From positions 88,282 to 152,281 of the forward strand of contig BQJD01000002.1 in assembly GCA_021604525.1 (NCBI GenBank): a stretch of 64,000 bases of DNA, given 5' to 3'. Origin of the DNA: a marine bacterium B5-7. GTDB lineage: Bacteria; Pseudomonadota; Gammaproteobacteria; Arenicellales; CAJQKF01. The number at the start of each line of letters is the position of its first letter. Within the stretch, counting starts at the first letter, position 1. This document shows, in pieces, positions 31,762-32,211 of this stretch. Made by a program: the position numbers and the translations under genes. The notes under the pieces were generated by a model that was not told the origin of the DNA, did no database searches, and saw nothing but the letters and a program-made list of their open reading frames with translations.

Positions 31762-32211
31762 TGGCGCGCCCGACAGGACTCGAACCTGTAACCTACGGCT
31801 TAGCTTACCCACTACGACTTTCGCCGCGCCGAATCCTCACAAAACAATATTATAAGGTCACATACCATAAAGACATATGCCCGAAAATCACCACTGTGAA
31901 GACCCGATTTGGAGTCTGGACTATATCTTCGCCATCGCAGGCGGGACACGTATAGTCTCTACGGATCCCTGCGCCAATTTCTACCCGAAACCACTATTCG
32001 GTCTCCATTCGAAACGGCGGCAGCCCATTACAGGCTGCGGTTTCCTCGGTATTGCCATCGCCACGACGCGTTAAGGGTTCACCGATACAGTGTCCTGCAC
32101 TTCGCGGGTTCTGTTTTCCCGCGAAGGCTCCAACCTGAACGCCAGAATCAATAGATCGATTCGACGTATCCGGCTAAAGGCCGTTGCTCTATCCGGTTGA
32201 GCTACGGGCGC
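31762..32211 (-). tRNA. tRNA-Arg (anticodon TCT), split by a group I intron
   Basis: Two exons, 32211-32177 (35 nt) and 31803-31762 (42 nt), join into a perfect 77-nt tRNA with encoded CCA. The acceptor GCGCCCG pairs with CGGGCGC, the D stem is GCTC/GAGC, and the T arm is ACAGG/CCTGT. The anticodon stem ACGGC/GCCGT closes the loop CTTCTAA, anticodon TCT. The anticodon stem and loop exist only after joining. The junction falls after T34, the only cut that rebuilds a seven-base loop. Position between tRNA-Pro and tRNA-His matches the conserved Arg-His-Leu-Pro tRNA cluster upstream of tig in relatives. It would decode AGA codons, so splicing is probably essential. Confidence 0.93.
31804..32176 (-). 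ncRNA. Group I self-splicing intron inside tRNA-Arg
   Basis: A 373-nt intron on the minus strand. P7 pairs GACTATA (31957-31951) with TATAGTC (31925-31919), inside the hallmark AGAGACTA and AAGATATAGTCC segments. P3 pairs GGACAC (32095-32090) with GTGTCC (31949-31944). P4 pairs TCGGT (32085-32081) with ACCGA (32050-32046). P2 is CTTCGCGGG/CCCGCGAAG (32126-32100) and P8 is CGCC/GGCG (31943-31930). The layout and joining sequences resemble the Azoarcus tRNA-Ile intron (IC3-like). It follows a U and ends in G, as group I introns do. The intron's TAG start could pair with the 3' exon CTA (P10). P1 could not be resolved. It is larger than the Azoarcus intron because of extra sequence before P2 and after P7. 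No endonuclease ORF is present. Confidence 0.92.

Follow-up and report, generated by a model that had tools for sequence, protein, structure and literature searches.

In the uncultured marine gammaproteobacterium B5-7, the only tRNA-Arg(UCU) gene found, and so the only arginine tRNA gene for AGA codons, almost certainly carries a catalytic group I intron directly behind U34. The gene structure, its exact boundaries, a conserved and covarying core, empty sites in relatives, an endonuclease gene in relatives and the outcome of a search for a second gene were all computed from the 64,000-nucleotide stretch of DNA analysed here (the window), the host genome and the genomes of its relatives.

A split tRNA-Arg(UCU) gene in the tRNA block before tig

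On the minus strand of the window, segments 32211-32177 and 31803-31762 join to give a perfect 77-nt tRNA-Arg(UCU) in which the acceptor, D, anticodon and T stems are all complete and CCA is encoded, and the joined 77-mer was called by ARAGORN as a complete tRNA-Arg(tct). When introns were allowed, ARAGORN reported tRNA-Arg(tct) at c[31762,32211] and gave its intron as 373 nt long, so that the coordinates and joined tRNA proposed by a first-pass annotation of this DNA proved exact in both the intron-mode prediction and the joined fold. Within the anticodon loop, CUUCUAA, the intron follows U34 and splits the anticodon itself. The parts of the gene are as follows.

32177..32211, minus strand: 5′ exon of tRNA-Arg(UCU), 35 nt, ending ...GGCCUU (C32 U33 U34); from the sequence and ARAGORN intron mode, conserved in relatives
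31804..32176, minus strand: group I intron, 373 nt, between anticodon nucleotides 34 and 35, its last base a G (omega G) at 31804
31762..31803, minus strand: 3′ exon, 42 nt, CUAAGCC...GCGCGCCA, CCA encoded; from the sequence and ARAGORN

The gene belongs to a block with the order Pro(TGG)-Arg(TCT)-His(GTG)-Lys(CTT)-Leu(TAG)-tig, which is the arrangement that the first-pass annotation had described. As it had also anticipated, scanners blind to introns miss the gene: neither ARAGORN without introns nor Rfam RF00005 called a tRNA within 31762-32211, and both called the flanking tRNA-Pro(TGG), His(GTG), Lys(CTT) and Leu(TAG). A BLAST search of the locus against 60 relatives matched 57; among the loci inspected, the same exons are 211-524 nt apart in one group and directly contiguous, as a natural empty site, in another. 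Since relatives carry the same halves either split or contiguous, a chance pairing of two tRNA halves is excluded.

Covariation supports a compact group I core

The spacer was compared with its relatives in a structural alignment of 31 orthologous intron cores against a named structure comprising P2, P3, P4, P5, P6, P8 and P7, the last pseudoknotted with P3. Across the 31 introns, 99.0% of the 1178 cells in P2-P8, including the P3/P7 pseudoknot, were paired, compared with only 33-41% when partners were slid by 1-3 columns as a control. Changes on both sides were seen in 17 of the 38 pairs, and double-change cells numbered 167 vs 57.8 in shuffles. Examples are two positions of P3 at which GC, CG and UA all occur, and the end pair of P4, which is UA or AU. 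P7 is near-invariant in the 31 introns, its two varying pairs each doing so in single sequences, as expected for the guanosine site, and its support thus comes mainly from invariance. The elements of the window copy, which keeps all P2-P8 pairs between two unmutated exons, are listed below, all on the minus strand.

32128..32130, minus strand: predicted P1 internal guide sequence GAG, which would pair with exon C32-U33-U34, with a U34.G wobble at the 5′ splice site; pairing deduced from the sequence
32100..32126, minus strand: P2 hairpin (CUUCGCGGG / CCCGCGAAG), both-side changes in 7 of 9 pairs in the 31 introns
32090..32095, minus strand: P3 5′ strand GGACAC, 100% paired, double changes in three pairs
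31944..31949, minus strand: P3 3′ strand GUGUCC, from the alignment of 31 introns
32046..32085, minus strand: P4 (UCGGU 32085-32081 / ACCGA 32050-32046), enclosing P5; both-side changes in two pairs
32076-32075/32056-32055 and 32070-32068/32061-32059, minus strand: P5, both-side changes in two pairs
31963..32045, minus strand: P6 (GG/CC, CC/GG), loop extended, with no endonuclease ORF
31953..31957, minus strand: P7 5′ strand GACUA (guanosine-binding helix)
31930..31943, minus strand: P8 hairpin (CGCC / GGCG), both-side changes in two pairs
31919..31923, minus strand: P7 3′ strand UAGUC, following J8/7 AAGAUA (31929-31924)
31804..31916, minus strand: P9 domain and intron 3′ end (GCGGCGAAAGUCGUAGUGGGUAAG); the extension is a minimum-energy fold only

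In P1, just three base pairs appear certain. The helices P2, P3, P4 and P8, first noticed from direct complementarity, are now backed by covariation and P7 mainly by its near-invariance, and the segment AAGATATAGTCC, previously singled out as typical of group I cores, corresponds to J8/7 plus the P7 3′ strand. The P9 region carries a motif, GGCGAAAGYCGUAG...GGUAAG, that is conserved in relatives, and the window copy has long P6 and P9 extensions when compared to compact relatives. P5 is a short hairpin and the insertion site lies in the anticodon loop; subgroup IC3, the introns of bacterial and plastid tRNAs, is defined by a compact core lacking P5a-d and an anticodon-loop position in a tRNA. 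The spacer is classed here as a compact group I intron of the kind known from bacterial tRNAs, and is called IC3-like by resemblance.

A family model recovers introns that Rfam RF00028 scores poorly or not at all

A covariance model, R1, was built from the alignment of the Arg(UCU) intron family. On the host genome it matched exactly two sites, one of them the window locus at E 1.3e-53, the window copy being a member of the training alignment. The second, at G000:C35:38044-38255, is a divergent intron in tRNA-Thr(UGU) that was absent from training and was matched at E 2.2e-21.

Rfam RF00028, put forward in the first-pass annotation as a check on the group I core, gave a divided answer: it had no match to the window copy at any reported level, nor in the whole host genome, and it did match orthologs at the same site below its gathering score. 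When the window copy was scanned with Rfam at gathering and at E-value cut-offs, likewise no intron family came up to threshold. On shorter same-site orthologs, RF00028 gave 23.6-35.1 bits (E 0.019 to 6.7e-6) against a gathering score of 50 bits, the best being L032 (35.1 bits, E 6.7e-6), L031 (E 7.1e-5) and the compact, 211-nt L033 (E 1.9e-4); six orthologs besides L032 scored 31.7, 30.3, 28.8, 25.7, 23.9 and 23.6 bits. The Arg(UCU) intron family is thus recognised, via orthologs, by an independent curated model, and because those orthologs are matched, the silence of RF00028 on the window copy reflects low sensitivity of the model and not absence of the intron. Nawrocki and colleagues had earlier judged that one RF00028 alignment would be poor at capturing group I diversity (PMC6125680).

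The intron is widespread at this site

From the loci surveyed, 115 unique introns of 175-697 nt, one of them from a phage, were excised at the tRNA-Arg(UCU) site. Each of the 115 follows a U in the exon and terminates in G. A GAGCC guide close to the 5′ end is shared by 112 of them, and two others have GGGCC. The order was surveyed by scoring, genome by genome, the base context of the exon junction, and tRNA-Arg(UCU) was interrupted in 43 of the 87 scorable genomes. The two states followed family lines, with all genomes interrupted in families f1 (3), f2 (10) and f11 (6), all intact in f3 (23) and f10 (18), and 20 interrupted beside two intact (G441 and G447) in f8. A class-wide sample contained 11 interrupted genes among the 150 listed, in eight genomes besides the host. 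The first-pass annotation had considered an Arg(UCU) intron unusual, a view that must be given up, as about half of the scorable genomes in the order have one and there are earlier reports from Beggiatoaceae.

The intron-exon junction was present in at least 118 stretches of named genome contigs. Among the matches listed, named carriers were Thiohalophilus (with the cultured Thiohalophilus thiocyanatoxydans DSM 16326, L050), Thioalkalivibrio, Candidatus Thiodiazotropha and Wenzhouxiangella, together with MAGs labelled Chromatiales, Woeseiaceae and Arenicellales. The same intron site also occurred in four records labelled as non-Gammaproteobacteria, namely a Hydrogenimonas MAG (L080), Desulfogranum marinum (L084), a Deltaproteobacteria MAG (L110) and a Caryophanon MAG (L138), which could reflect either horizontal transfer or contigs placed in the wrong bin, L084 being the genome of an isolate. 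In a further record, L171 (G091:C101), the group I intron of tRNA-Arg(UCU) lies after U36 and not U34, suggesting a second insertion site within the same anticodon loop.

An endonuclease in the long copies, absent from the window lineage

Endonuclease-bearing length (634-697 nt) was reached by 23 of the 115 introns, about 20 of which have an ORF of ~137 aa in the P6 loop. Both of the long-copy ORFs examined matched Pfam PF11645, a PD-(D/E)XK endonuclease (E 1.4e-39 and 3.4e-37), and one such ORF compared with solved structures was related to PDB 2OST (E 2.6e-5), which is I-Ssp6803I from the Synechocystis tRNA-fMet intron. Broken or truncated ORFs were present in three long copies (L080, L126 and L130), and a 453-nt intron, L172, retains a recognisable endonuclease remnant. 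Paired R1 matches inside single long introns were considered as twin introns and rejected: from their sequences, L172 and L173 each proved to be a single intron divided by an endonuclease gene or what is left of one, and L174 has one full-length R1 match that spans the long P6 loop. The window copy has no endonuclease ORF.

In a tree of intron cores from Arg(UCU), the huge phage, Thr(UGU), Arg(CCU) and Leu(UAA), whose bootstrap is not fully settled, a 99/99 branch set all Arg(UCU) and huge-phage introns apart from those in Thr(UGU), Arg(CCU) and Leu(UAA). On the window intron's own branch no sampled Arg(UCU) copy was of endonuclease-bearing length, compared with 22 such copies elsewhere in the tree. 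Given that the window copy and the sampled copies on its branch lack the endonuclease, the window intron is now probably inherited vertically. Both the tree and the family-wise presence and absence of the intron fit a history in which the endonuclease was lost and the intron was then passed on vertically; the tree is explained just as simply by an ancestor that had no endonuclease. We consider it unlikely that the intron is still actively homing in the window lineage instead of being a vertically inherited relic; its patchy occurrence across the class and the intact G441 and G447 within f8 would suit such activity, but the window copy carries no endonuclease ORF, the copies long enough to encode one all fall on other branches, and the near-uniform state within families, from wholly interrupted (f1, f2, f11) to wholly intact (f3, f10), speaks against it.

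Taken more broadly, there is about an even chance that a single intron lineage occupies tRNA-Arg(UCU) in many gammaproteobacterial orders and in a 484-kb phage, driven by an I-Ssp6803I-like endonuclease that it repeatedly gained and lost, and that it has become fixed, free of the endonuclease, in this essential, single-copy tRNA gene in whole families including that of the window. If true, few tRNA introns known in Pseudomonadota would be as widespread, and it would have gone largely unnoticed because Rfam and the tRNA finders skip it.

Related introns in other tRNA genes and in a phage

The second host intron, outside the window, is a 295-nt group I intron after U36 of tRNA-Thr(UGU) (L025:301-672, G000:C35), and the sister genome G001 (L041) has the same arrangement; we found no report of bacterial tRNA-Thr(UGU) group I introns in the literature. 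Group I introns after U36 of tRNA-Arg(CCU) also occur within the order (L038, L040 and L042), those sampled lying outside the Arg(UCU) branch of the tree. R1 matches were further obtained in tRNA-Gln(CUG) in L183, L184 and L186, where ARAGORN placed the 5′ splice site after C34 and not a U, so that the difference lies either in the boundary or in the usual U.G rule.

A BLAST search of plasmids and phages returned just 3′ tRNA halves, except for one huge-phage core. This phage (LR756508.1, 484 kb) has tRNA-Lys(UUU) and tRNA-Arg(UCU) genes (L045:1366-1634 and 1765-2016), each with a compact group I intron, of 193 and 175 nt and matched by R1 at E 1.1e-38 and 3.1e-33, respectively. According to a 2014 review, all phage introns then known were in protein genes (PMC3984707). 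The split phage tRNAs are closely followed downstream by a HEARO RNA at L045:2164-2388 (RF02033, 144.4 bits, E 8.4e-31).

Splicing is probably needed for an essential tRNA

A second intact tRNA-Arg(TCT), named beforehand as the counter-evidence to look for, was not found by sequence searches of the host genome (4.4 Mb, estimated 100% complete). Ten AGA codons occur in eight genes of the window, including lon, clpX and clpP. The host has a tRNA-Arg(CCU) at C35, which under normal wobble rules does not read AGA. With no other UCU gene found and AGA codons in lon, clpX and clpP, we infer that splicing must work. For the splicing chemistry, the P1 pairing and the homing we propose the following. 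The tRNA block would be transcribed and exon C32-U33-U34 would pair with the intron's GAG guide, forming P1 with the splice site marked by U.G; an exogenous guanosine held in P7 would cut after U34, and the 3′-OH of U34 would then attack after the intron's terminal G, joining the exons into mature tRNA-Arg(UCU) and releasing the intron. In relatives that have it, the PD-(D/E)XK homing endonuclease of the P6 loop would let the intron invade tRNA-Arg(UCU) genes that lack the intron.

The intron, in an essential tRNA gene found in a single copy, is real and very probably functional. That it has instead decayed into a non-splicing group I intron, leaving a pseudogene and AGA to be read by another tRNA, is very improbable: the missing RF00028 match and the long P6 and P9 extensions of the window copy could be read as decay, but the intact exons and complete P2-P8 pairing, the need to read AGA in core genes with no other UCU gene found, and the fixation of the interrupted state across whole families of the order all argue against it. 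An unrelated insertion between the tRNA halves (a MITE, a group II intron or an enzymatically removed intron), which would account for the absence of any Rfam intron family at threshold on the window copy, is scarcely credible beside a covariation-backed core with a P3/P7 pseudoknot, RF00028 matches to orthologs, a U before the 5′ splice site and a terminal G in every one of the 115 introns, and a P6 loop that in long copies holds a homing endonuclease of the type found in tRNA group I introns.

Relation to known tRNA introns

Several known introns resemble the functional group I intron proposed here. The Azoarcus pre-tRNA-Ile(CAU) IC3 intron is alike in being compact and placed in the anticodon loop, and its P3/P7 core and J8/7-P7 strand look similar in form; it interrupts a different tRNA and is ~200 nt long, whereas the window intron is 373 nt with P6 and P9 enlarged. 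The cyanobacterial and plastid tRNA-Leu(UAA) introns, which lie in the anticodon loop after U34 and whose guide, GAG, and P2 motif, GAGCCU...AGUG, look like those of the window intron, are also in a different tRNA from the window's Arg(UCU). The Agrobacterium-type tRNA-Arg(CCU) intron shares an arginine tRNA and the group I class with the window intron but differs in tRNA and insertion position. The I-Ssp6803I intron of cyanobacterial tRNA-fMet has a PD-(D/E)XK endonuclease inside a tRNA group I intron, as do relatives of the window intron, but it is in a different tRNA and the window copy has no endonuclease.

The closest precedents come from Ca. Thiomargarita nelsonii Bud S10 and the orange Guaymas Beggiatoa BOGUAY, whose tRNA-Arg-TCT genes are reported to hold putative group I introns (PMC4853749, citing MacGregor et al. 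2013). These are in the same tRNA and host class and were missed by automatic annotation for the same reason; PMC4853749 gives their location, without structure or subgroup, and the window host is of a different lineage. We found no description of the structure of Arg(UCU) introns in the literature. The authors of tRNAscan-SE 2.0 mention 36 genomes in which group I introns had caused fMet or Ile2 genes to be overlooked (PMC8450103), and the bacterial tRNA group I introns listed in a review are mostly cyanobacterial, with a few in alpha- and betaproteobacteria (PMC4033280).

Group I introns in tRNA genes are a known kind, and the Arg(UCU) intron is widespread rather than odd; what is added here is its extent, a covariation-supported structure, the family of its endonuclease and the host-wide pattern. 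The results account for the many gammaproteobacterial genomes in which tRNA-Arg(UCU) had seemed to be 'missing', and bring to light a common intron family overlooked by the standard group I model and by tRNA finders. They also raise the question of why an intron that lacks an endonuclease stays fixed in an essential gene, and with full-length, decaying and absent endonuclease genes all at one essential site, the family offers a natural series for testing the cycle of gain, fixation and loss of homing introns.
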